Assembly (NCBI RefSeq): GCF_001922305.1 | Contig: NZ_CP018839.1 | Coordinates: forward strand, 186,001 to 250,000 | DNA: 64,000 bases | Direction: 5' to 3' | Origin: Thauera chlorobenzoica | GTDB lineage: Bacteria; Pseudomonadota; Gammaproteobacteria; Burkholderiales; Rhodocyclaceae | In this document: positions 34,487 through 46,552 of the stretch, one piece after another | Layout of the letters: each line of letters starts with the position of its first letter | Position numbering within the stretch: the first letter of the stretch is position 1 | Program-made: the position numbers and the translations under genes | Notes under the pieces: model-generated | The model's database searches: none | Told to the model about the DNA's origin: nothing | Seen by the model: only the letters and a program-made list of their open reading frames with translations

Positions 34487-34810
34487 TCAGATCAATGCTT
34501 CAAGGCCTTTGCGCTCAAGCAGGTTGAGCAGTTTTTGTGATGGACCACTGGGGTGCTTGCCGCCCAACTCCCACTGGCGCACCGCTGACGGACTCGTGTT
34601 GAGCAGCGACGCCAGGACGGTCTGGCTGATCTGATAGCGGTCGCGAAGGGACCGAATCTTCTGGGCGTCATAGTCGGGAATCGGGTCCAGACACAACGCG
34701 TCGTATTTGCGCATCTTGCGTTGGTCGATAAAGCCCAACCGGCTCAGATCCGCCGCCGTCTCGTGCACAGCCTCCAGGATTCGGCTCTTAGCCTTCGTCT
34801 TTGTCGTCAT
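34487..34810 (-). CDS. HTH antitoxin-type regulator (HigA/NadS-like)
   Basis: A 107-residue protein with a C-terminal XRE helix-turn-helix (IRSLRDRYQISQTVLASLLN, then SPSAVRQWELGGKHPSG), typical of antitoxins whose toxin gene precedes them. Its start lies inside the 3' end of the truncated toxin ORF, so translation is coupled. It is complete, while its toxin is not, so it may now act only as a repressor or as an anti-toxin against related modules. Confidence 0.8.
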   Translation of the reverse strand: MTTKTKAKSRILEAVHETAADLSRLGFIDQRKMRKYDALCLDPIPDYDAQKIRSLRDRYQISQTVLASLLNTSPSAVRQWELGGKHPSGPSQKLLNLLERKGLEALI

Positions 34811-34943
34811 CGCAACCACCGCCGAGATCCGCGTCGATCAGCCCCTGAGCCATCTCGCGTACTGCGCCACACAGGGCCTCGTCAGTCAGTTCTGTCTTTC
34901 GCATCCAGCGGCTGAAGTGGCGAGTTTTGAAGACGCGATTCAT
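34788..34943 (-). pseudogene. Truncated RelE/DUF1044-type toxin gene
   Basis: ATG 34943 encodes 51 residues. The first 43, including NRVFKTRHFSRWMRKTELTD and AVREMAQGLIDADLGGG, match the N-terminus of RelE-superfamily toxins that are normally about 110-130 residues. After GGG the family sequence stops and a short acidic tail CDDDKDEG follows. The C-terminal catalytic strands are missing, consistent with an internal deletion joining the toxin start to the antitoxin start. Confidence 0.8.
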
Positions 34944-34953
34944 CGCCGAACTA

Positions 34954-37900
34954 TCACACTTGGTGATGGGTATCAGAAGGCTCTCTGAGCGTCGTCTCAA
35001 GCGCGAGCGTGCCCAGCATGCAGGCGATCCCAGCCAGGTGACCCAGCCCGCTACCATTCGGCTCGGTGAGCTGGATACCCAGCCACTTGGCGTAGCTCGA
35101 CGCCTTGGCGAGTGAGGGTGGGCCGATGCGGCGGATGCGTACGGGAAGCTGAGCCTTGAGCGTGGAAGGAACCCAGGCCGGAGGACGGGCTTGGCCGTCC
35201 TGGGTGCGCAGCACGCACTGAAACTCCGACTCCTTGATCCCGAGTTCGCCCAGGAACTGGATATAGCTTGCGAGCGCATCGCCATGCTGGGGCCCGGTGA
35301 ACACGACATCATGCTTCTGGCGATTGAAGTGCTTCAGGTGAAGTTGCAGGCCAGCACGGCACAACGCCGGTGATTTGCGTGCGAGCACCGCCAGACGCGC
35401 TTCGAAACTGGCCAGAAACGCGAGCTCGGCTGGCAAGCGCGGCCGGGGCAGCTTGGGCACGTTCGTGTCCGTGAGCGCGAGCCCCAGCAAGGGGGCATAG
35501 ACCGGTGCTTGTGCGAGGATCGAGGCCACAGCGGCTGGCGCCATCTGCAACTGCTCGGCAATCTGGGCCTGTGAGAGGTCGGGCAACGCGGCCAGATGCA
35601 GGACGGCCCGGACCTTGTCGAGTGCAAGCCAGTGCGCGCTCAGGTGGGGTGGCGGTGCCTTGGGGCGCCCTCGGGGACGCTGGCAGGGGGCAGGCACCAT
35701 GGGCGCCGTCGGCTCGATGGGTTCCTCGACTAAGGGCGCCGGCAACTGGGGTAGTCGCGCCAGCGTGCGCGCGACCAGTGCCAGGGCAGACGACTCGAGG
35801 TAGCGCATCGCCGTGCTCAAGGGCAGACCCGATGCGGCGGCGAGCACAGTGTTGGGCAGCGCACGCAGTTCGCGATCGGTGAGGGCGGCCATCACGATCT
35901 CGGTGCCATGGATATAGTGTCCCATCGACACGGTGGGGCTCGAATGCCCGAGCAGCCGCGCGACGGCAAAGCCATACACTCGGCTCGGCGCGCTGACATG
36001 GCCGAGCAACAGCAGGCGCGCTCGACGCCCGTTCGCAAGCCAGCGCGCGGTGGCGGGGTGCGCTGCGAAGAATTCCGGGATTTCGGGCGCATCGGGTGCG
36101 CGAAGACGCAGCATCGTCCACGTCGCAAACGCGTGCCGCAAGTGGTGAATGAACAGCAGCCGGTCTCCGGTTGCGCGGCGCAGCGCCGCATAGACACGGT
36201 CCGAGATGCCCTCGTAGGACACACTGGTGCGGCCCGTCTTGACGCTCGCCAGGAGCAACGCGGAGCGTGTCACCCCCGATTCGACCGCGGCCGCATCTTC
36301 TGCTTGTCGCCTGCGAACCCAGGCTCTCAGCATCGTGCGCTCGCCCGGTGCAAGCAAGGCGTGAGCGGGGAGGATCCGTTTCGAGTTCTCGGTTTTGAGG
36401 CGATGGCCGGGATAGTCGCGGACCAGCACCGTGAGGCCGCGCCCGTGCAGGTGGACGTCCTCGATGCGTAGCCCGAAGATCTCCATCGCACGCAGGCCCA
36501 ATCGAAAGGCCATCATCAGGACGAGCTTGGCGATGCGCACGAGGTCGGGTGCAACCCCGCGGGCGAGTTCCTGATCTAGGCACGATTGCGCTGCCCAGTA
36601 CTCGTCGATGGTGACCAGGTTGGCGTCGACCGGCATCAAATGGGCATCATCACCGAGCACGAGGTCCAGCCGCTGGATGTGGGACAAGCCATGTTTGCGC
36701 ACGAGGTAAGCGTGAAACTCGCGCAGGCCCGTCTTGAGTGCGAGCCGGGCCGACTCGATGTCGCACTCGTTGCTGATCTCCGCGTAGAGGGCTTGCAGGT
36801 CCTCGAGCGGCATCCGTGTCGGATCGGCCGGCCCGAGGTGAGACAGCAAGCGGCGAAGAGATTCGGTCACCCGGTGACGAATCGTTGATAGGGCCAGCGG
36901 CTTTCCGGTCGCGCTGTTGCCGTCGACGAGGAACTGGATGAAACCGAGATAGCAACGGGCGAGTGGCTCGTGCGGGTGACGCGCCATCAGGGCAGTGATG
37001 GCCGCGAGGGCGGTCGAGTGCTGATCGGTTTCCAGAGCGGCCAGCGCAGGCTCGAGCCACGGATACATTATCGACAGATTCTCTAGCAGGTCCGCGTAGT
37101 CGGCGTCTGCGTCTTCGGGTGAGACGTAGGCGCTGGATCGCAGCCGCGCCGCGAGTGAGGACTGCGAAGCGCCAAAAATCCGCTGCCAGCTTCGGCGGTG
37201 AATCGCATGCGCTGGGAGCGCGCGTGTCATCACGCCGACGTCGAGCGAGGACGCATGAGCCCGCCACCAGGTGCTGGCGGATTCGATCAGGTCCTTGACC
37301 CCGGTCGGCTGTCGTTCGCGCGAGAGGCCTTGCGCGGTGAGGAAGCGCCGGATAGCGACCTGAGCCTTCAGAGCAGAGGGTGGCGCTGAAGCCGCCACGC
37401 CGGCCTGACGCTCGATGAGGCGGATGAGCAGAAGCGCGGTCAGTGCATCCGGAAACCAGCGCTGCAGATGCAGGTTCCCGAGTCCCTGGTGGGGGAGGTC
37501 GAACTCGAGGTAGCAGCGGGGGACGGTGCCGTGGAACCGGCCGCCTTGGCTGATGTGTTCGATCAGCCGGTTGAGCTTGACTGAATCGAGCAGCGCGCCG
37601 TGCAAGACCGCCGAAAGGAGGGTTGCGCCCCAGACTTGAAGGGGATCAATCGGGTTGCTACCGAGTGATTCGATCCCGCGATGAAGTGCTTCGCGCCATG
37701 CCGCGGTGCGCGCCGCGGCGGCCATGCTCGGTTCAGAAAACGGGCTGGGCGTGCTGGGCAGGGCCGCCGGTAGTCGTGTCTCGGCGACGATCACCCCCGC
37801 AGCTTGCAGATTCCGGATGACCAGATACAGGATGCGCAGCCAGTCGGCCGCCTCAGCGCTTTGCAGCTCTTGTGTGCGGATATGTTGAACAATTCGCGCC

Positions 37901-38094
37901 TCGAGCGTTCGCGCGCTTGCTAAGTCGGGCGCGGCGGTATCGTCTTGCGACTCGCGACCGCTCAACAGGCGTGCGTGCGGATTTTCAAGCTGCGCCAGGA
38001 ATCGCTTGAGCCCGGGCATCCGCTGGCGCGTGCGCGGTGACAGGCTCCGTTCCGTATCCGACCACGCCGTCTCCAGCGTTGCATCCCGGTTCAT
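34954..38094 (-). CDS. Very large tyrosine recombinase (trio component A)
   Basis: A 1046-residue protein. A tyrosine-recombinase catalytic domain spans about residues 490-735 with the full active set: Arg535 (RLGLRAMEIFGL), a Lys at 567, His650 and Arg653 (HHLRHAFATW), His717 (ARLLGHSSP) and nucleophile Tyr727 (MGHYIHG). About 40 extra residues separate HxxR from LLGH. The N-terminal 480 residues are helical and unassigned. After the catalytic domain come an AT-hook-like RPRGRPKAP (about 806-814) and a putative HTH LSQAQIAEQLQMAPAAVASI (about 840-859). It starts 3 bases after trio component B. Confidence 0.85.
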   Translation of the reverse strand: MNRDATLETAWSDTERSLSPRTRQRMPGLKRFLAQLENPHARLLSGRESQDDTAAPDLASARTLEARIVQHIRTQELQSAEAADWLRILYLVIRNLQAAGVIVAETRLPAALPSTPSPFSEPSMAAAARTAAWREALHRGIESLGSNPIDPLQVWGATLLSAVLHGALLDSVKLNRLIEHISQGGRFHGTVPRCYLEFDLPHQGLGNLHLQRWFPDALTALLLIRLIERQAGVAASAPPSALKAQVAIRRFLTAQGLSRERQPTGVKDLIESASTWWRAHASSLDVGVMTRALPAHAIHRRSWQRIFGASQSSLAARLRSSAYVSPEDADADYADLLENLSIMYPWLEPALAALETDQHSTALAAITALMARHPHEPLARCYLGFIQFLVDGNSATGKPLALSTIRHRVTESLRRLLSHLGPADPTRMPLEDLQALYAEISNECDIESARLALKTGLREFHAYLVRKHGLSHIQRLDLVLGDDAHLMPVDANLVTIDEYWAAQSCLDQELARGVAPDLVRIAKLVLMMAFRLGLRAMEIFGLRIEDVHLHGRGLTVLVRDYPGHRLKTENSKRILPAHALLAPGERTMLRAWVRRRQAEDAAAVESGVTRSALLLASVKTGRTSVSYEGISDRVYAALRRATGDRLLFIHHLRHAFATWTMLRLRAPDAPEIPEFFAAHPATARWLANGRRARLLLLGHVSAPSRVYGFAVARLLGHSSPTVSMGHYIHGTEIVMAALTDRELRALPNTVLAAASGLPLSTAMRYLESSALALVARTLARLPQLPAPLVEEPIEPTAPMVPAPCQRPRGRPKAPPPHLSAHWLALDKVRAVLHLAALPDLSQAQIAEQLQMAPAAVASILAQAPVYAPLLGLALTDTNVPKLPRPRLPAELAFLASFEARLAVLARKSPALCRAGLQLHLKHFNRQKHDVVFTGPQHGDALASYIQFLGELGIKESEFQCVLRTQDGQARPPAWVPSTLKAQLPVRIRRIGPPSLAKASSYAKWLGIQLTEPNGSGLGHLAGIACMLGTLALETTLREPSDTHHQV

Positions 38095-38097
38095 CGA

Positions 38098-40818
38098 CTA
38101 ACCCCGCCGGTCGAGGTGGTGAAGGAGTCGGCTCTTGATCGGAACGAGCTCGAGCGTCTCGTGCAGGGACTGCAAGGCCGGAATCAGCTGGGCGCGATGC
38201 AAGCCGTAGTCAAAACTTGAGAACCTCCCAAACGGGGACTCGCCTTCGTTGAAATGTCCCAAGAACGCGTCGATCACCTCGCCGGTGACGCCGCGGGCGA
38301 GAAGCTGCGTGCGCAGAAATGCGCGATGGAAGTTGGCCGGCAGTGGCGCGCCACGCGCGGCAAGCTGACCGGCGACCCACGTGGGCGTCAGCGGCGCGAG
38401 CCGGCGGCGTTCATCGAGCACGACGAAGGGCTGCCAGTCAGCAGCCTGTTTGCGATCGATCTGCGGCTGCAGCCGCTGGAGCAGGTTATCGACATGGTCG
38501 CGGTAGTTCTGCAACTGAAGGCACAGCGACGCATCAACGATTGCCAGCCGTGCGCGGCTGCTGCGTTCGTCATCCTTGTCTGACAGTGCCGCGTCGAATG
38601 CATGCACCGCGTCATCTTTGCCCGCGAGAAAGAGCGTATTCGCGCGCGGGCTCGTCAGCGCGCGCATGCTAGTCGAGAGGGCCGCGTAGAGCCATGTGTA
38701 GAGGGTGTAACTCGCGTGATACGCAACGAGCAGTGCGCCAAACAGCGGCGTGCGGCGGGAGGTGCGGATCTCGGCGCTGAGGGTCCTGAGCAGGTCATGG
38801 ACGACCCCGAGCGGTGCGACGAACCGGGCGCCGACCCTCATTCCCTGATCGCTCGTGATGGCCTCAGCGGGCACGCGTGGCAAGGCGGTTGCGGGTGTAA
38901 TGCCGAGCTGCCGTGCGAGTCGATGACTGGCGCGCCCGTGCAAGCGAATGAGCGTATCGACACGATATTGGGTATAGAACATGCGCGGCTCATCGCCGCG
39001 GTCGGTCTCCGCGCAGAGCAGCCACGTGGCAGGGGCATCGGCCCCGAGGTTGCGCAGAAGGGTTGGCAATGTGCGGGAGACGCGCATGGGTGTGAGTCGC
39101 TCGAGCCCAGGCGCGCTGAGCAGCTGCATCACCGCCTGCTTTGCAGTGCTCGGTTCGATGCCGAACACGCGCTTGTTCGTTCGATGCTCGCTTCCCAGAA
39201 AGCGTGTTAGCAGGACGCCGATACCCAAGCAGTCGGGTAGCAACAAACCGGGGGCCAATGGTGGCTCTTGCATCTTGCTCAGTGCCTCGGGCAAATCGGT
39301 CTTGTAGCTGGGCCCGATGGCTGGAATCCAGAACCCTCTAGTGAGCACCGCAGGTGCGCCCAGGGCGGCACCGAGCCCTGCTCCTGCGTTGAGAATGAGC
39401 GTGGTGTGTTCAGTTCTTAGCGACAGTTGCTCAGAGGGTTCCATCACCTCGAATCGCAACTCCCGCACCCGGCGCAGGGGTTGGCCGAGCGCAAGCATCG
39501 TGAGCAGGATCAGCGCGCCGATACACTCAAGCCTTGCTTGGGCCCGGTTTTTTGCGTTTCCGGCCAAGTGACGCTCGACGCGCCGCAATAGAAGCCTATG
39601 GAGCGTGCGCAGTTCAACCGGGGTGGGTGTCGCATAAAAGAAAGGCAGCGGCTGTGCTTGCGTCTCGATTGCAAGCTGCTGTCTGCGCAACTCAGCGAGC
39701 TTGGTGCCGATTTCCTGGCTGGCATAAAGCTGAAACGTCGGCTCAAGGGATTCGGCGGGCGAGAGCCCTGCGGCCTCCAGCGCGCTCGTCTCTTCGTCTT
39801 CTTCAAGTCCGATGTCGATAAAAACCGTCGTCGCCTCAAAATGGGCAAAGTCGTCGAGATCTTCATCGAAGTCGGGTGCCTGCTGATGCTGCATAAAGAC
39901 GCCGGCGACATCAGGCAGATTCACATATCCGGGCCGACGCTGTCGCCCGCCCGTGTTGTAGCGTTCGGAGCGTGCGCGACGGTACAGCCGGAACACGACA
40001 CCCTGCGTCAACAGGTTGGCGTATCGCGCGAAGTAGCGTTTGAGGGAGCCGAGGTAACGACCGATCCGGTCGGGTTTGCCGTCCGCGCCCTCCCAGGCTG
40101 AGAGGTCGATGTCAGCCATGGCTTTCGCATAGTCCTGCGCCGTTTGCGCCTCCGGCAGAAGCGACACGACTTGGTCATGCTCAGCCAGGCTCAGTTCGCG
40201 AATCGCGAGCCCGACATCCGAGGTGGGGGACGGCGCGATCGGCCATTCGCGCGGGCCGTCGTAGTGTTCGAAGTGCTCGAGTCCGGCGTATCCAGTCCCC
40301 GCCCGGGTCTGGTCATAGGTAAAGCGAGCCTGCATGTAACTCGCGAGGGTTTGCAGCTGAAGCTGAAAATACCGGAGCGCGGCGATCGGACGGCGCTCAT
40401 CCGGTGGGTAGTCGAGCGCTGCATGATGGCAATTCCATAATGCAGCGACGAGGCCGTGACGTGATACGCCGTGACGCAACAGCGGATGGTCGTGCTCGTG
40501 CTGGGGTTTGCGGTCCAGGAGCGCCAGTGCGGGGGCTTGGGAGAGCGCGGAGCGTCGCTCGCTGATCCAACGGCACAGCTCGATCCATTGAGGCAATTCG
40601 TCCAGCAGCGCTTGCTCACGAAAAATGCCGGGCATCGATTGCGCCGATGCGAGCAACGCCCCCACATGCTCGAAAACTTGCGCGTGCGCGACCAAATCAG
40701 GGTGGGCATTGATGAGCCAGAGCAGCCGGCGCAGCGCCATCGGATCGAACCCGGCATCGGTACAGGCCGCGATCAGACTCTGGTGCGCTGGGGCCTGGAC
40801 GGGGGCGCTGAACTTCAC
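38098..40818 (-). CDS. Large degenerate tyrosine-recombinase-like protein (trio component B)
   Basis: A 906-residue protein. The C-terminus has FHRAFLRTQLLARGVTGEVI and DAFLGHFNEGESPFG ending in SSFDY, which follows the box II pattern of tyrosine recombinases in reduced form. An earlier LALGQPLRRVRELRF (about 442-455) sits where the box I Arg would be. A strongly acidic stretch occupies about residues 316-345. Starts with GTG overlapping the stop of component C (GTGA). Probably a DNA-binding partner of component A; whether its Tyr871 is catalytic is unclear. Confidence 0.7.
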   Translation of the reverse strand: MKFSAPVQAPAHQSLIAACTDAGFDPMALRRLLWLINAHPDLVAHAQVFEHVGALLASAQSMPGIFREQALLDELPQWIELCRWISERRSALSQAPALALLDRKPQHEHDHPLLRHGVSRHGLVAALWNCHHAALDYPPDERRPIAALRYFQLQLQTLASYMQARFTYDQTRAGTGYAGLEHFEHYDGPREWPIAPSPTSDVGLAIRELSLAEHDQVVSLLPEAQTAQDYAKAMADIDLSAWEGADGKPDRIGRYLGSLKRYFARYANLLTQGVVFRLYRRARSERYNTGGRQRRPGYVNLPDVAGVFMQHQQAPDFDEDLDDFAHFEATTVFIDIGLEEDEETSALEAAGLSPAESLEPTFQLYASQEIGTKLAELRRQQLAIETQAQPLPFFYATPTPVELRTLHRLLLRRVERHLAGNAKNRAQARLECIGALILLTMLALGQPLRRVRELRFEVMEPSEQLSLRTEHTTLILNAGAGLGAALGAPAVLTRGFWIPAIGPSYKTDLPEALSKMQEPPLAPGLLLPDCLGIGVLLTRFLGSEHRTNKRVFGIEPSTAKQAVMQLLSAPGLERLTPMRVSRTLPTLLRNLGADAPATWLLCAETDRGDEPRMFYTQYRVDTLIRLHGRASHRLARQLGITPATALPRVPAEAITSDQGMRVGARFVAPLGVVHDLLRTLSAEIRTSRRTPLFGALLVAYHASYTLYTWLYAALSTSMRALTSPRANTLFLAGKDDAVHAFDAALSDKDDERSSRARLAIVDASLCLQLQNYRDHVDNLLQRLQPQIDRKQAADWQPFVVLDERRRLAPLTPTWVAGQLAARGAPLPANFHRAFLRTQLLARGVTGEVIDAFLGHFNEGESPFGRFSSFDYGLHRAQLIPALQSLHETLELVPIKSRLLHHLDRRG

Positions 40819-41411
40819 AGAGCGGGTTCGCTGTCGGGTTCATCGAACCCCTGTCGCTTCTGTCGCGGCAGGACTGCATCCAGGCTGTAGCCCGTGGCGA
40901 TGGCAAAGCGCTTGGCGCTGGCAGGGCCGTATGTCTTCGTCTTGGGATCGGTTTCCGCGATCGCAATGAAGCCAGCGTCGGCGATTGCCTGATGCAGGCA
41001 ATAGAGCTGGTGTGGAAGATGCGGGCGCGTGCGGGCCAGGGCGTGATGGATGATCAGGTCAGCCGCCAGGATCTGGAGCTTTTGCGCCTTACGCAGACGG
41101 CCGCTTTTGATCCGGAGCACCACCACGGCATCCTCCGGGCCGTACAGCTGCTGCGCGAGCCAGTACGCACGACCTGCGCCCAGGACATCGTAGCCCTCCT
41201 TGCGCCGGATCACGGTCATCGGGTTCATCGCGTAAGCGAGTTCCAGGAGTGCTCGATCGTGATGGCGAACCGCAAAACCGAAGTCCGGAACCACCCAGTG
41301 CTGCTCCATGAACGCTGCAAGGTCTGCGTCCAGCCCGAGTATCTCGGCGAAAGGGAGGGTGATGTGCTCCATCGCCGGCAGTGCAGGGGAGGTCGCGCTT
41401 GATTGGGTCAT
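40815..41411 (-). CDS. ParB-like small protein (trio component C)
   Basis: A 198-residue protein, first gene of the recombinase trio. The segment NPMTVIRRKEGYDVLGAGRA with following AVVVLRI resembles the GxRR-containing core of ParB/Srx-type domains, but with GAGRA in place of GERR. The C-terminus RFAIATGYSLDAVLPRQKRQ could be a helix-turn-helix remnant. Function unknown; may bind element ends. The assignment is tentative. No strong ribosome-binding site is seen. Confidence 0.6.
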   Translation of the reverse strand: MTQSSATSPALPAMEHITLPFAEILGLDADLAAFMEQHWVVPDFGFAVRHHDRALLELAYAMNPMTVIRRKEGYDVLGAGRAYWLAQQLYGPEDAVVVLRIKSGRLRKAQKLQILAADLIIHHALARTRPHLPHQLYCLHQAIADAGFIAIAETDPKTKTYGPASAKRFAIATGYSLDAVLPRQKRQGFDEPDSEPAL

Positions 41412-41473: not shown

Positions 41474-41890
41474 CTACGTTGTCGTGGCCTTGCGCGGCCG
41501 CCCTCCAAGCCGTCCGTTGGCGCGCGCCGCGGCCGCCTTGGCTTCCGAGGTCTGGCGTCCCCCGGCTCGCCCTGCTTCTGCGCTCATCCAGCGGCGGGAG
41601 CCGAGCATGCCTTCAAGCAGGGCAGGCAGGTAGAGGTCGGCATCGAGCTGCGGGAAGTGCAGGCCGAGCCCTGAGGGGCTGATCTCGATTTCGCTCAGCG
41701 CTTGCGGTGCAGCTTGGCCGAGGCCCTCGGCCAAGCGAGGCTCGAACGACACCTCCAGCCCGGAGCTCAGCACGATCACGACGCGGCCACGAAGCGCATC
41801 AAAATGCGCCTCGGTCGCCACGGGGCCTTTTGCGCGGCGGTCTTGTCCGCGGCGGTTGGCCCGCTCGAATTCGGTCTCAGAAATCGTCAT
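41474..41890 (-). CDS. DUF2442 protein
   Basis: A 138-residue protein. The middle LRGRVVIVLSSGLEVSFEP and LSEIEISPSGLGLHFPQLDA match DUF2442, including the FPxLDAD pattern; the C-terminus GRLGGRPRKATTT has an AT-hook-like GRP. ATG 41890 lies 14 bases inside the DUF4160 gene. DUF2442 and DUF4160 pairs are widespread and behave like toxin-antitoxin-style modules in layout, but no activity is established. Confidence 0.8.
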   Translation of the reverse strand: MTISETEFERANRRGQDRRAKGPVATEAHFDALRGRVVIVLSSGLEVSFEPRLAEGLGQAAPQALSEIEISPSGLGLHFPQLDADLYLPALLEGMLGSRRWMSAEAGRAGGRQTSEAKAAAARANGRLGGRPRKATTT

Positions 41891-42125
41891 GAAGGTGCTC
41901 CCATTCATCACACAGCTTGCCCAACGCCTTCGTCAGGGCGGCGCTGAATTCGCTCAGGTCCTTTCGGGTGAAGCCGAAGTTCTCACGCAGCTCGGGCGGC
42001 CCGTCGGGACAACGAAGCTTGAAAACTGCCTCGCATCCACCCCCGATCACATGGACGTGGGCGGGGCGGTGATCGTTCGGATAGATCACAACCCGGGCGC
42101 TGGCGAGTCGCAGGATAGTAGGCAT
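41877..42125 (-). CDS. DUF4160 protein
   Basis: An 82-residue protein starting MPTILRLASARVVIYPNDHR, then PAHVHVIGGGCEAVFKL, the full DUF4160 signature with its HxHV residues. It overlaps the DUF2442 gene by 14 bases. No Shine-Dalgarno sequence is seen before the start. First gene of the minus-strand run that continues through the recombinase trio. Confidence 0.82.
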   Translation of the reverse strand: MPTILRLASARVVIYPNDHRPAHVHVIGGGCEAVFKLRCPDGPPELRENFGFTRKDLSEFSAALTKALGKLCDEWEHLHDDF

Positions 42126-42337
42126 TATAGCAATTAACCCAAGCTACTTAGGTTTAATCCCTCGCGTGAGGGTAGGGGTCGTCTAGGTAGGACCATGTTA
42201 CGTTTACATTTTAACCATATTTTTTGTATTTACTAGGGTTAGATCGTGGCCGGATGGTTTGTCAAATTTCGCCGGATGCCTGACGAAAGCCTTGTAGATA
42301 ATGAATAAAGCCGATTGTGACCAAGGAAGACCTGGAG
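42126..42337. other. AT-rich non-coding patch next to the attachment site
   Basis: Bases 42120-42250 are clearly more AT-rich than the surroundings, with runs such as ATATTTTTTGTATTTAC. They contain an imperfect palindrome centred near 42150, AACCCAAGCTACTTAGGTT (15 of 18 non-central bases paired apart from two mismatched pairs). The patch lies between the DUF4160 start and the tRNA remnant and probably holds the promoter of the minus-strand run and recombinase or host-factor binding sites. Confidence 0.5.
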
Positions 42338-42396
42338 GCGCCGGTAGACTGGGCTAGACTCCGAAGGCGGACGTTCGAATCGTCTCGGGCGCGCCA
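42338..42396 (+). pseudogene. Decayed tRNA-Arg(CCG), probable island attachment site
   Basis: The 3' end is intact: T-arm GGACG-TTCGAAT-CGTCT (42369-42385), acceptor 3' strand CGGGCGC (42386-42392), discriminator G and CCA (42394-42396). A 5' acceptor-like GCGCCGG at 42338 pairs with it at six of seven positions, and CTCCGAA at 42359-42365 looks like an anticodon loop for Arg CCG. The D-arm, anticodon stem and variable loop are too short (59 nt in total against about 77), so it cannot be functional. Confidence 0.75.
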
Positions 42397-42440: not shown

Positions 42441-42751
42441 CACATCTCCCGCGCCGGTCAGAGGTCGAGCCAGCCACCTTTGGCGAAGCGGCGATAGGCT
42501 TGTCCTGCGCGATGCGTTCTTCTCCTCCAAAACGCAGTGACGGCGGTCGTGATTTTCCGCAGAGATTTTCCTAGACTGCGGTCGTGAGGCGCGCGCGTTC
42601 GCGCCCCGCAAACCCGGTCGCCCCGACGGGCACCCCCCGGATCCGGATCCCTTTCTTCCGCCCCCGCGCGGCAATCTCCGTTCGATGGCGGCCGCACGCC
42701 AGTCGTGCCGGCTTCGCACAACTGTTGCCGACGCCGGCAGAGGAGATACGG
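42441..42751. other. Intergenic region upstream of the FAD oxidoreductase
   Basis: No gene is supported here. A 10-base direct repeat GCGGTCGTGA occurs near 42543 and 42580. The ribosome-binding site AGGAG for the next gene lies at the right end. Confidence 0.5.
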
Positions 42752-44134
42752 ATGAATGCGTTATCCAAGGAACAGGCCGCGCCGCTCGCGGCCGCCGTCA
42801 CCGGCCGGGTGGTCTGCCCGGACGCCCCCGAATTCGATGAACTACGGAAAGTCTGGAACGGAATGGTCGACCGGCGCCCCGCCGCGATCGTGCAGTGCGC
42901 GAGCGCGGACGACGTCGCCCCAGCGATCGCATTTGCGCGCGGGTGCGGGCTGACGATCTCGGTCCGCGGCGGCGGGCATCACATCGCGGGCAATTCGATT
43001 GCCGATGGCGGGCTCGTCATCGACTTTTCCGCGATGCGCGCGGTCCGCGTCGATGCGGCGCGCCGGAGCGCGGCCGTCGAGCCCGGGGCGACGCTCGCCG
43101 ACTTCGACGCGGCTGTGCAGCGCCATGGTCTCGTCGTGCCGGTGGGCATCAACTCGACGACCGGGATTTCGGGGCTTACGCTCGGCGGCGGCTTCGGCTG
43201 GCTGACGCGCAAGTACGGGCTGACGATCGACGCACTGCGGTCCGCAGAAGTCATTACCGCAGACGGCGAGAAGCTGTGTGCGAGCGCGAGCGAGAATGCA
43301 GACCTGTTCTGGGCGCTGCGCGGCGGCGGCGGAAATTTTGGCGTCGTTACGCGCTACGAGTTCGAATTGAGTCCGCTCGGCCCGAACATCGTCGCCGGCC
43401 TGATCGTCTATCCGTTTGCGCAGGCCAAGCAGGTGCTGACGCGCTACCGCGATTTCGTCGCGGGTGCGCCGGAGGAACTGACGGCGTGGATCGTGCTGCG
43501 CCATGCGCCACCGTTGCCATTCCTTCCGGCCGACGTGCACGGGACGAAGGTCGTCGTCGTCGCGCTCGCGTATTGTGGCGACGTGTCGCAAGCGGAAGCG
43601 GTGGCCGCACCGCTGCACGTGCTTGGCGCGGCGCACGGCGCGCATGTCGGCGAGATGCCGTACGTCGACTGGCAGAAGGCGTTCGACCCGCTGCTCGCGC
43701 CCGGGGCGCGGAATTACTGGAAATCCCACAACTTCACTGAACTGAGCGACGCGGCCCTCGGCACGAAGATCGAGTACGCGGGCAGGCTGCCCTCGCCGCA
43801 GTGCGAGATCTTCATCGGCCACCTCGCGGGTGCGCCGAACCGGGTTGCGCGGAACGCGACGGCGTATCTCGCGCGCGACGCGAAGTTCGTAATGAACGTG
43901 CACGCGCGCTGGGACCACTCCGCGCAGGATGCGGAGTGCATCCGGTGGGCGCGCGACCTTTTCCGCGCCTCCGCACCCTATGCATCCGGTGGCGCCTACG
44001 TGAACTTCATGACGGAGGACGAAGGCGAGCGCGTCGCCGCGGCGTATGGCGAAAACTACGAGCGGCTCAGGGAGATAAAGCGCCGGTACGACCCGCAGAA
44101 CGTGTTTCACATGAACCAGAACATCAAGCCGTGA
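42752..44134 (+). CDS. FAD-linked oxidoreductase, PCMH type with BBE C-terminus
   Basis: A 460-residue flavoenzyme. The N-terminal FAD-binding PCMH domain has RGGGHHIAG (72-80), whose His is the usual covalent FAD site, and LTLGGGFGWLTRKYGLTID. The C-terminus YENYERLREIKRRYDPQNVF-type segment is the berberine-bridge-enzyme (BBE) tail. The second covalent Cys of bicovalent members is not evident. ATG 42752 follows AGGAG. Oxidises an unknown substrate, often a sugar or alcohol in this family. Single-gene unit. Confidence 0.88.
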   Translation: MNALSKEQAAPLAAAVTGRVVCPDAPEFDELRKVWNGMVDRRPAAIVQCASADDVAPAIAFARGCGLTISVRGGGHHIAGNSIADGGLVIDFSAMRAVRVDAARRSAAVEPGATLADFDAAVQRHGLVVPVGINSTTGISGLTLGGGFGWLTRKYGLTIDALRSAEVITADGEKLCASASENADLFWALRGGGGNFGVVTRYEFELSPLGPNIVAGLIVYPFAQAKQVLTRYRDFVAGAPEELTAWIVLRHAPPLPFLPADVHGTKVVVVALAYCGDVSQAEAVAAPLHVLGAAHGAHVGEMPYVDWQKAFDPLLAPGARNYWKSHNFTELSDAALGTKIEYAGRLPSPQCEIFIGHLAGAPNRVARNATAYLARDAKFVMNVHARWDHSAQDAECIRWARDLFRASAPYASGGAYVNFMTEDEGERVAAAYGENYERLREIKRRYDPQNVFHMNQNIKP

Positions 44135-44152
44135 AGTCGTCCAGCGCCCGCA

Positions 44153-44184
44153 ACCTCAGGGGCGGAGGTACGCGTCCCTGAGGT
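44153..44184. repeat. Inverted repeat after the FAD oxidoreductase gene
   Basis: Perfect 9-bp arms ACCTCAGGG and CCCTGAGGT with a 14-base loop lie 19 bases after the stop. No T-run follows, so it may be a transcript-end hairpin rather than a standard terminator. Confidence 0.5.
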
Positions 44185-44287
44185 CGGCGTTACGGCCGAT
44201 GAAGCTCCCGCGGCCACGCCCCGGGAGCGCGAGAAAACGGCGACAATGGCGGCCAACCCGGTTTGAACGCCATTTCAGGATTCTCCT

Positions 44288-46552
44288 ATGGAAATCAAGG
44301 TTAATTTTCTCGACAAGCTTCGTCTTGAAGCCAGATTCGATGACTTCACGGTGGTGGCCGACCAGCCTGTCCGCTACAAGGGCGACGGCTCGGCGCCGGG
44401 TCCGTTCGACTACTTTCTGGCTTCGTCGGCACTGTGCGCGGCTTACTTCGTGAAGCTCTACTGCGAAACGCGCAATATTCCTACCGATAACATCCGCCTG
44501 TCGCAGAACAACATCGTCGATCCGGAGAACCGCTACAAGCAGATCTTCAAGATCCAGGTCGAGCTGCCGGAGGATCTCTCCGCCGCCGACCGCCAGGGCA
44601 TCCTGCGCTCGGTCGAGCGCTGCACGGTGAAAAGGGTGGTGCAGACCGGGCCCGAGTTCGTGATCGAAGAGGTGGACAATCTGGATGCCGATGCCCAGGC
44701 CTTGCTGGCGCTGAATCCGGAACCCGAAGCAAGCACCTACATTGCGGGCAAGGACCTGCCGCTGGAGCAGACCATCGCCAACATGTCGGGGGTCCTGGCG
44801 GACCTGGGCATCAAGATCGAGATCGCCTCGTGGCGCAATCTCGTGCCCAACGTGTGGTCGCTGCATATTCGCGATGCGCATTCGCCGATGTGTTTCACCA
44901 ACGGCAAGGGCGCGAGCAAGGAAAGCGCGCTGGCGTCGGCCTTGGGCGAATATATCGAGCGGCTGAATTGCAATCACTTCTACAACGACCAGTTCTGGGG
45001 CGAGGACATCGCCGACGCGGCGTTCGTGCATTACCCGAACGAGCGCTGGTTCAAGCCCGGCCCCGGCGATGCGCTGCCGGCGGAAATTCTCGACGCGTAC
45101 TGCCTGCAGATCTACAACCCCGAGGGCGAGTTGCGCGGCTCGCATCTGTACGACACCAACTCCGGCAATATCCAGCGCGGCATCTGTGCGCTGCCCTATG
45201 TGCGTCAGTCGGACGGCGCGGTGGTGTATTTCCCCACCAACCTGATCGACAACCTGTATCTCAGCAATGGCATGAGTGCCGGCAACACGCTGGCCGAAGC
45301 GCAGGTGCAATGCCTGTCGGAAATCTTCGAGCGCGCGGTCAAGCGCGAAATTCTGGAAGGCGAGCTCGCCCTGCCCGACGTGCCGCCCGAGGTGCTGGCG
45401 AAATATCCCGGCATCGTCGCCGGCATTGAAGAACTGGAGCGCCAGGGCTTTCCGGTGCTGGTCAAGGATGCGTCGCTGGGCGGGGCGTATCCGGTGATGT
45501 GCGTCACCTTGATGAACCCGCGCACCGGCGGCGTGTTTGCCTCGTTCGGGGCGCACCCGAGCCTGGAGGTGGCGCTGGAACGCAGCCTGACCGAGTTGCT
45601 GCAGGGGCGCAGTTTCGAAGGCCTGAACGATCTGCCCCCGCCCACATTTGAGAGCAACGCGGTCACCGAGCCGAACAACTTCGTCGAGCATTTCATCGAT
45701 TCCAGCGGCGTGGTGTCGTGGCGTTTCTTCAGTGCCAAAGCCGACTTCGATTTTGTCGAGTGGGACTTTTCCGGCCACGGAGAGAATTCCAACATCGTGG
45801 AAGCCGCAACCCTGTTCGGCATCCTCGAAGATATGGGCAAGGAAGTGTACATGGCGGTGCATGACCAGCTCGGCGCAACGGCCTGCCGCATCCTGGTACC
45901 GGGGTACTCGGAGATCTATCCGGTGGACGACCTGATCTGGGACAACACCAACAAGGCCTTGTCGTTCCGTGCCGATATCCTGAACCTGCATCGACTGGAC
46001 GATGCCGGTCTGGAGGCGCTGCTTGAACGGCTGGAACACAGTGAGCTCGATGATTACACCGACATCATTACCCTGATCGGCATCGAGTTCGACGAGAACA
46101 CGGCCTGGGGCCAGCTGACGATTCTGGAATTGAAGCTGCTGATCCATCTCTCCCTGCAGCAGTTCGAAGCGGCGAAGGAGCGGGTGGAAGCCTTCCTGCA
46201 ATACAACGAGAACACGCTTGAGCGCGGACTGTTCTATCAGGCCCTGAATGCGGTGCTGGAGGTGCTGCTGGACGACGACCTGGAACTGGACGACTACGAG
46301 GCCAATTTCCGCCGGATGTTCGGCAACCCGCGGATGGAAGCGGTGATCGGCTCGGTAAACGGCAGCGTGCGCTTCTTCGGCCTGACCCCAACGAGCATGA
46401 AACTGGAAGGGCTCGACCGGCACCAGCGCCTGATCGACAGCTACCGGAAACTGCACACGGCGCGGGCCACGGTGGCGGATTTATCCAGTCGGGGTACGGG
46501 TCGGGGCAGGGTCGGCCACCAGGCTGAGCGGGTGGCTTCCACAAGAAACTGA
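44288..46552 (+). CDS. ycaO: OsmC-YcaO fusion protein
   Basis: A 754-residue protein. Residues 1-145 form an OsmC-like domain (PGPFDYFLASSALCAAYFVK). The rest is a YcaO domain: SKESALASALGEYIERLNCN and AEAQVQCLSEIFERAVKREI carry the Glu residues that bind Mg-ATP. The C-terminal part is helical and TPR-like. This two-domain form is linked with ribosomal protein S12 beta-methylthiolation together with RimO. No rimO gene lies in this window. The ribosome-binding site is AGGA. Confidence 0.9.
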   Translation: MEIKVNFLDKLRLEARFDDFTVVADQPVRYKGDGSAPGPFDYFLASSALCAAYFVKLYCETRNIPTDNIRLSQNNIVDPENRYKQIFKIQVELPEDLSAADRQGILRSVERCTVKRVVQTGPEFVIEEVDNLDADAQALLALNPEPEASTYIAGKDLPLEQTIANMSGVLADLGIKIEIASWRNLVPNVWSLHIRDAHSPMCFTNGKGASKESALASALGEYIERLNCNHFYNDQFWGEDIADAAFVHYPNERWFKPGPGDALPAEILDAYCLQIYNPEGELRGSHLYDTNSGNIQRGICALPYVRQSDGAVVYFPTNLIDNLYLSNGMSAGNTLAEAQVQCLSEIFERAVKREILEGELALPDVPPEVLAKYPGIVAGIEELERQGFPVLVKDASLGGAYPVMCVTLMNPRTGGVFASFGAHPSLEVALERSLTELLQGRSFEGLNDLPPPTFESNAVTEPNNFVEHFIDSSGVVSWRFFSAKADFDFVEWDFSGHGENSNIVEAATLFGILEDMGKEVYMAVHDQLGATACRILVPGYSEIYPVDDLIWDNTNKALSFRADILNLHRLDDAGLEALLERLEHSELDDYTDIITLIGIEFDENTAWGQLTILELKLLIHLSLQQFEAAKERVEAFLQYNENTLERGLFYQALNAVLEVLLDDDLELDDYEANFRRMFGNPRMEAVIGSVNGSVRFFGLTPTSMKLEGLDRHQRLIDSYRKLHTARATVADLSSRGTGRGRVGHQAERVASTRN

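Follow-up and report, generated by a model that had tools for sequence, protein, structure and literature searches.

A three-gene module of Thauera chlorobenzoica combining a complete tyrosine recombinase with a predicted tandem-fold partner and a small protein of predicted ParB-like fold

The stretch of DNA analysed here, referred to as the window, covers 64,000 nucleotides of Thauera chlorobenzoica (G000:C1:186001-250000, on a single contig of 3,735,506 bases) and contains three adjoining genes on the minus strand that we designate SM, MD and YR. The first, SM (40815..41411), encodes a small protein of 198 amino acids (aa) with a ParB/Noc/sulfiredoxin-like fold in its predicted model. It is followed by MD (38098..40818), which starts with GTG and encodes a 906-aa protein recognised as tyrosine-recombinase-like, with tandem folds, from its open reading frame (ORF), its model and its conservation, and then by YR (34954..38094), which encodes a 1046-aa tyrosine recombinase with a complete set of catalytic residues. 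According to the ORF list, SM and MD overlap at the sequence GTGA and three bases separate MD from YR; an earlier note on this DNA, made from its letters alone, had described three touching or overlapping same-strand genes of 198, 906 and 1046 aa, and the ORFs lie exactly where it placed them.

YR matches the Pfam family PF00589 (Phage_integrase) with 30.7 bits, above the cut-off of 27.1. Its six catalytic residues, R535, K567, H650, R653, H717 and Y727, are present and conserved, as the RKHRHY pattern recurs in 48 of the 51 alignment rows that cover all six positions, and the claim that the 1046-aa protein carries the full catalytic set is therefore upheld. The catalytic domain spans residues 523-735 (35890..36528, minus strand) and has a long stretch between the HxxR and LGH motifs. 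Comparison with PHROGs likewise places YR, together with two fused MD-YR proteins, in integrase families. No arm domain was matched in YR among the Pfam families, and the integron integrase profile TIGR02249 gave 8.9 bits against a cut-off of 265.

Neither MD nor SM has any Pfam or NCBIfam match at E ≤ 1; in PHROGs the sole match of MD is to a family of unknown function (E 0.11) and SM has no match. Structure models were built for MD and SM, with the distant plasmid relatives excluded. The predicted model of MD contains two tandem tyrosine-recombinase folds of the catalytic-domain type, and the fold matches fall into two separate groups. Fold 1 (residues 394-637; 38908..39639, minus strand) retains only the tyrosine place of the catalytic set, Y615 (codon 38974-38976), which is kept in 52 of 53 sequences covering it in a 59-row alignment. 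Fold 2 (residues 664-890; 38149..38829, minus strand) retains R719 (Arg in 55/55 rows), K748 (Lys in 54/54), R832 (Arg in 54/54) and H855 (His in 53/54), with Ser867 in the place of the tyrosine (Ser in 50/54) and Asn829 in that of the first histidine (Asn in 45/54). Of the 50 rows spanning all six positions, 45 have the combined pattern Y615-R719-K748-R832-H855-S867, and Y615, R719, K748, R832 and H855 account for five of only 13 MD columns that are at least 85% conserved, among columns with at least 35 rows. MD had been called a degenerate tyrosine recombinase; the likeness to recombinases holds, but the word degenerate undersells what model and alignment indicate, namely two folds with complementary conserved residues. 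On the predicted model, MD looks like a pair of half-enzymes, each holding the part of an active site that the other lacks. This raises the possibility, which we put forward tentatively, that MD is an active recombinase with a single active site assembled from two tandem folds in one chain, fold 1 supplying the nucleophile Y615 and nothing else, and fold 2 the Arg-Lys-Arg-His set without a nucleophile. Together with YR it would form a two-activity machine of three recombinase folds, which some genomes encode as a single chain reaching 1941 aa and which a ParB-like clamp would mark onto its DNA end. We know of no tyrosine recombinase described with such a built-in split site.

MD could instead be catalytically dead and fill half of a YR-MD tetramer, in which case cutting would be confined to a single strand pair and replication would resolve the Holliday junction, as has been suggested for the strand-biased circularizing integrative elements (SEs). 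The absence of the tyrosine and of the first histidine from fold 2 fits such a role, the occurrence of MD and YR as a single ORF suggests a 1:1 stoichiometry, and there is precedent in the SE protein Tfp (PMC10214605) and in GinC of the GInt elements (PMC5385486), which are described there as recombinase folds that lack catalytic residues and yet are needed. However, hardly any variation is seen in the fold 1 tyrosine or in the Arg/Lys/Arg/His set of fold 2, although most MD relatives are ~20% identical to MD, and Y615 would be superfluous in a protein that did no more than clamp DNA. We consider a purely structural MD conceivable rather than probable.

The model of SM has a pLDDT of 65.4, with a higher core and a part below 50. 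Foldseek rows 1-25 for this model comprise ParB, Noc, a plasmid repressor and sulfiredoxins, with a best E of 3.6e-3 at a Foldseek probability of 0.97; TM-scores are low and none of the matches reaches E ≤ 0.001. The ParB/sulfiredoxin-like fold is thus a property of the predicted model, and the earlier description of SM as ParB-like is sustained at the level of the fold but not by a match at that E-value. SM is short and diverged in sequence. A profile built from three SM proteins and iterated over all locus ORFs reached 15 distinct loci, in each of which it found the ORF just upstream of MD, and it did not reach six added plasmid small genes. At other loci MD often has an ORF of comparable length in front of it, as judged by size and place.

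The partnership of MD and YR recurs well beyond this genome. Prevalence figures here rest on sampled genomes. MD and YR occur together in 40 of 44 MD loci: YR lies directly downstream on the same strand in 31, and in nine the two form one ORF of 1151-1941 aa, which at loci L097 and L118 contains only the second part of MD. The remaining four loci comprise two at contig edges, one in which YR is split by an insertion (L023) and one at a contig end (L094). Since the genes are also present in a second genome of the genus (G012), with 84-88% DNA identity, and MD is accompanied by YR this often, the trio is not a chance arrangement, and the neighbourhood survey gave no sign of homologues that always stand apart and are not inherited together, the observation named beforehand as one that would count against a trio. 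Relatives of YR were found in 8 of 101 near genomes, and the MD profile matched 14 of 369 genomes at class level and 20 of 398 at phylum level, the T. chlorobenzoica genome being counted each time. Relatives identified by name include an MD match in Thauera aminoaromatica S2 (Cont73), a trio of overlapping genes in Azonexus fungiphilus (SM 163, MD 901 and YR 1007 aa), and relatives in Propionivibrio, Ghiorsea and a Nitrospirae-labelled bin. Relatives in the plasmid collection extend to Aeromonas, Vibrio, Sphingobium and Ketogulonicigenium. A 6.9-kb query, consisting of a single trio with flanking sequence, matched 231 Acinetobacter records in PLSDB, and for 186 of these the match spanned 80% or more of its length. 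Patients are the source of some of the matching Acinetobacter plasmids. The trio recombinase DNA of genome G638 had no match in E. coli genomes, and among viral contigs 48 stretches with the pattern yielded no relatives, as did a first scan with MD alone.

Several individual loci deserve mention. Acinetobacter plasmid pE47_002 carries two diverged trios (L125, 36336-42230 and 13129-19153). At L097 (7707-13066) MD seems to be divided at the boundary of its two folds, a 521-aa ORF being followed by a 1278-aa ORF with MD fold 2 and YR, and at L098 and L092 a 500-aa ORF touches MD. The Aeromonas caviae record L010 is labelled a plasmid but is chromosome-sized at 4.9 Mb, with only 18 features listed.

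Comparison with described systems supports, as far as tested, the earlier impression of a trio type that fits none of them: the recombinase model of the Gamma-Mobile-Trio (GMT) systems has no match, and the number and make-up of the genes differ from those of GInt, SE, RIT and Tn554 elements as these are described. The GMT systems, GmtX/Y/Z, reportedly pair one tyrosine recombinase with two partners on cargo islands, a composition that the present trio shares. The GmtY model (NF040693, 441 positions, cut-off 340 bits), however, found no match at the trio, including the 1046-aa YR, and gave 21.6-26.6 bits for three other recombinases of the genome, which places YR outside GmtY on this model. 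Of the models tried for the GMT partners, NF040692 ('recomb_assoc') matched nothing here and matched no control either, and NF040694 proved unrelated.

GInt elements (Bardaji 2017, PMC5385486) have four genes, ginABCD, that encode three recombinase-type proteins and, in last position, a small HLH-like protein. They resemble the trio in placing an operon with a small protein at one end of an island of variable cargo, in occurring as several types per genome, and in GinC, whose recombinase fold has no catalytic residues. The trio differs from ginABCD by this description, having three genes, one complete recombinase, the small ParB-like-fold gene first and a two-fold partner. SEs (intA-tfp-intB-srap; PMC10214605), which were found in gammaproteobacteria only in the survey reported there, also join a recombinase to Tfp and a small auxiliary protein in coupled genes. 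They have four genes and two complete recombinases, whereas the trio has one complete recombinase and occurs in other classes of Pseudomonadota too, again compared by description. RIT and Tn554 elements share with the trio overlapping genes and more than one recombinase domain, and Tn554-like sets with an abnormally long recombinase are on record (PMC3414803); RitA, RitB and RitC, like TnpA and TnpB, are separate recombinases there, whereas MD holds two incomplete folds in one protein. The trio is not a set of adjacent overlapping ritA, ritB and ritC genes, as YR alone is complete and neither MD nor SM matches a recombinase profile, and its one complete recombinase gene does not correspond to TnpA, TnpB and TnpC of Tn554 as described.

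The trio might still be a divergent branch of one of the described trios or quartets (GMT, GInt, SE or RIT), with which it shares the plan of an operon that joins at least one active recombinase to a partner of recombinase fold and a small protein. We think this unlikely, given the failure of the GmtY model to match YR, the single complete recombinase gene instead of two or three, the sizes of 906 and 1046 aa, and the position of the small gene at the start and not the end of the set. Searches of an open-access library showed no description of the trio among the results listed, which is weak evidence of novelty. Our best reading is that SM-MD-YR represents a new variant of the multi-recombinase mobility modules.

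In T. chlorobenzoica the trio lies at one end of a 62-kb island. An intact tRNA-Arg(CCG) gene is located at G000:166464-166540, and a degenerate tRNA-Arg-like copy, ending ...GGCGCGCCA, is found at window positions 42337..42396 on the plus strand, where 29 bp (42368-42396) are identical to the tRNA-Arg 3' end. Beside the intact tRNA-Arg, at the opposite end from the trio, a 478-aa integrase is encoded with a PF12167 arm domain (81.6 bits, in its first 285 aa) and a catalytic part matching PF00589 (G000:167927-168418). The cargo between the two ends includes metal-efflux, copper-type P-type ATPase, RND, cation ATPase and ChrB-type genes. The same-genus genome G012 keeps the integrase end (89% DNA identity) and the trio end, with mostly different cargo between them, and therefore the trio looks like part of the island backbone. 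Similarity to G012 at the trio end fades directly past the tRNA-like copy, and chromosome common to both genomes resumes at about window position 44230. The idea put forward in the earlier note, of an unmatched trio type that moves the neighbouring island, is thus sustained in its first part as far as tested and not in its second: the island has its own integrase at tRNA-Arg, and the trio sits at the other end. A search for paired repeats flanking the trio gave nothing convincing. The MD copy of G012 (L018, 14568-16218) is cut by an insertion of ~1.65 kb whose flanks overlap by 9 bp (window 40728-40736), as after transposition with a 9-bp target duplication.

The arrangement in Thauera is open to a different explanation, in which the trio is an accessory system for exclusion, for copy or multimer resolution or for regulation, and integration is left to an arm-type integrase. 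Arm-type (P4-like) integrases share with the trio the setting of tRNA-bounded islands; they are single proteins of ~390-480 aa with an arm domain, for which YR has no match. Besides the 478-aa protein and its counterpart in G012, a 413-aa integrase frame stands near an intact tRNA-Met in genome G897, in an island homologous to that of genome G836. Arm-type integrases were detected in 12 of the 44 trio loci, nine of them 61-1295 bp past the end of YR by coordinates (counted with three query integrases, without a random control), and the trio is widespread on Acinetobacter plasmids beside umuDC-like genes. Other loci speak against a purely accessory trio. At G836 (L107) a partial tRNA-Met lies 4.2 kb upstream of MD and an intact tRNA-Met 77 kb off in the same orientation. 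The interval holds no PF00589 recombinase (E ≤ 1e-5) apart from that of the trio, although a tRNA-side integrase may have been lost. At L109 a tRNA-Val cut at the anticodon, with an intact tandem tRNA-Val beside it, lies 175 bp from the start of the small ORF that precedes MD; a 430-aa integrase frame is nevertheless present ~50 kb away, and the contig did not reveal the far end of this island. The sharp ends that the trio shows against unlike flanks, described below, likewise count against this explanation, and we regard an accessory role as somewhat improbable.

An intact tRNA was detected by ARAGORN in 3 of the 50 loci scanned. One lies upstream at L088 (tRNA-Val), and at L114 an intact tRNA-Met is located 264 bp past the end of YR, with an integrase on the SM side. 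An empty-site search for L104 found no informative neighbour. By eye, L104 (13611-13856) and L154 (17471-17746) contain a similar small HTH-type gene, which comes directly after YR in the former and in the latter occupies the far end of the G836 island, next to the intact tRNA-Met; it may encode a regulator or excisionase of these elements. Two 24-bp palindrome-like repeats, a possible binding site, occur 100-280 bp upstream of MD in L104.

The ends are best seen in Acinetobacter, in loci picked for the presence of the trio and for repeat number and not at random. On the left side of the trio the match breaks off at an edge sharp to one or two bases, where a 31-bp sequence that begins ATAACAG and sits 164 bp upstream of the small gene abuts four distinct flanks. 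The right end is softer: among the 60 matches listed of 210 records, 22 end at query positions 1030-1034, 58-62 bp past the YR stop and in different right context, 28 end at 978-989, just past the gene, four run on, three stop elsewhere in or near the gene and three have no trio coverage. Similar repeats in the same orientation head a HipA-HTH module and a Fic-YhfG module. A second copy of the HipA module with repeat heads was seen on plasmid pSGAir0122 (L132, 4556-7156), beside mercury genes and IS elements and with no trio next to it. The Acinetobacter ends fit a mobile unit whose end is the small-gene side, as judged from these alignments, and deletion is a possible alternative, because at least one left flank is an IS3-like fragment and deletion can also give sharp ends.

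The repeats also bring to mind an integron-like array, in which the trio would insert cassettes at its own end and the 31-bp direct repeats upstream would separate the modules. The ten Acinetobacter loci scanned hold 27 copies of the repeat, all oriented like the trio, and the distinct left flanks number seven for HipA, four for the trio and two for Fic. However, there are three module types only and most of these loci share one HipA-Fic-trio order, which implies few independent insertions, and the IS3-like flank allows for deletion here as well. When a looser repeat pattern was applied to eight other plasmid-collection loci, one similar site was found in AB105 and none in the other seven, and the trio of the window showed no array of this kind. 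Cassette insertion by the trio therefore seems distinctly improbable to us.

Taking these observations together, we lean towards the view that SM-MD-YR is the recombination module of integrative elements, both islands and plasmid-borne modules, with YR as the complete recombinase, MD as a split-site partner and SM as a DNA-end clamp; gene sets of this type probably help islands and plasmids to move. This view is built on observed linkage, fusions, residues, sharp left ends and tRNA-bounded ends and on folds from predicted models; from these we infer the complex, the donation of the tyrosine, the role of SM and movement itself. YR would cut and rejoin DNA with its complete tyrosine-recombinase site. 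MD, the constant partner of YR, adjacent to it and sometimes fused with it, would bind the same kind of core site with its two tandem folds, fold 2 gripping the phosphate with its Arg/Lys/Arg/His set. The yeast recombinase FLP has a shared active site in which the tyrosine comes from outside; similarly, Y615 of fold 1 would enter the pocket of fold 2, or that of YR, from outside. A 1:1 assembly of YR and MD would thus give a four-site complex. SM, whose predicted fold resembles the ParB DNA clamp, would mark the end of the element or load it, a role proposed because most of the loci with a visible end have the SM gene on that side. Three points weigh against such a module: in Thauera the trio sits opposite the 478-aa integrase, which disfavours it as the mover of the 62-kb island; L114, with its intact tRNA-Met past YR, is an exception to this orientation of the small gene towards the end; and the IS3-like flank in Acinetobacter allows sharp ends to be read otherwise than as insertion.

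Among the genes surrounding the trio, a DUF2442 (41474-41911) and DUF4160 (41877-42125) pair lies directly upstream on the minus strand (41474..42125; PF10387 37.4 bits and PF13711 38.8 bits), inside the block common to the window and G012. From its sequence the pair is possibly a toxin-antitoxin system; the DhiT toxin model scored 19.1 bits on it, below the cut-off of 100. Downstream of YR, an antitoxin-like HTH protein is encoded at 34487..34819 (minus strand; HTH_3, 27.0 bits), preceded by the start, at about 34800-34943, of a frame that we take to be a RelE-like toxin. Position 34887, at which the block shared with G012 stops on the left, was considered as an element end and rejected: it looks like a truncation, because it falls inside this presumed toxin-gene start, which G012 has cut. 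Near the island integrase, at G000:170358-175459 (L036, 2358-7459), overlapping genes encode a PDDEXK nuclease and a UvrD-type helicase, an AddAB-like or defence pair, and past the island end (window 42584-46552) there is a berberine-bridge-type FAD oxidoreductase gene followed by a YcaO/OsmC gene.

If the view of SM-MD-YR as a recombination module is correct, it would represent a widespread and almost unannotated class of mobility modules and a new way to build an active site from two incomplete folds. It would also explain many of the genes annotated as 'hypothetical protein' beside 'site-specific integrase' on plasmids. Moreover, the role of the GInt and SE partners that lack catalytic residues would become more testable, through changes to one tyrosine and four basic or histidine residues in a single protein.

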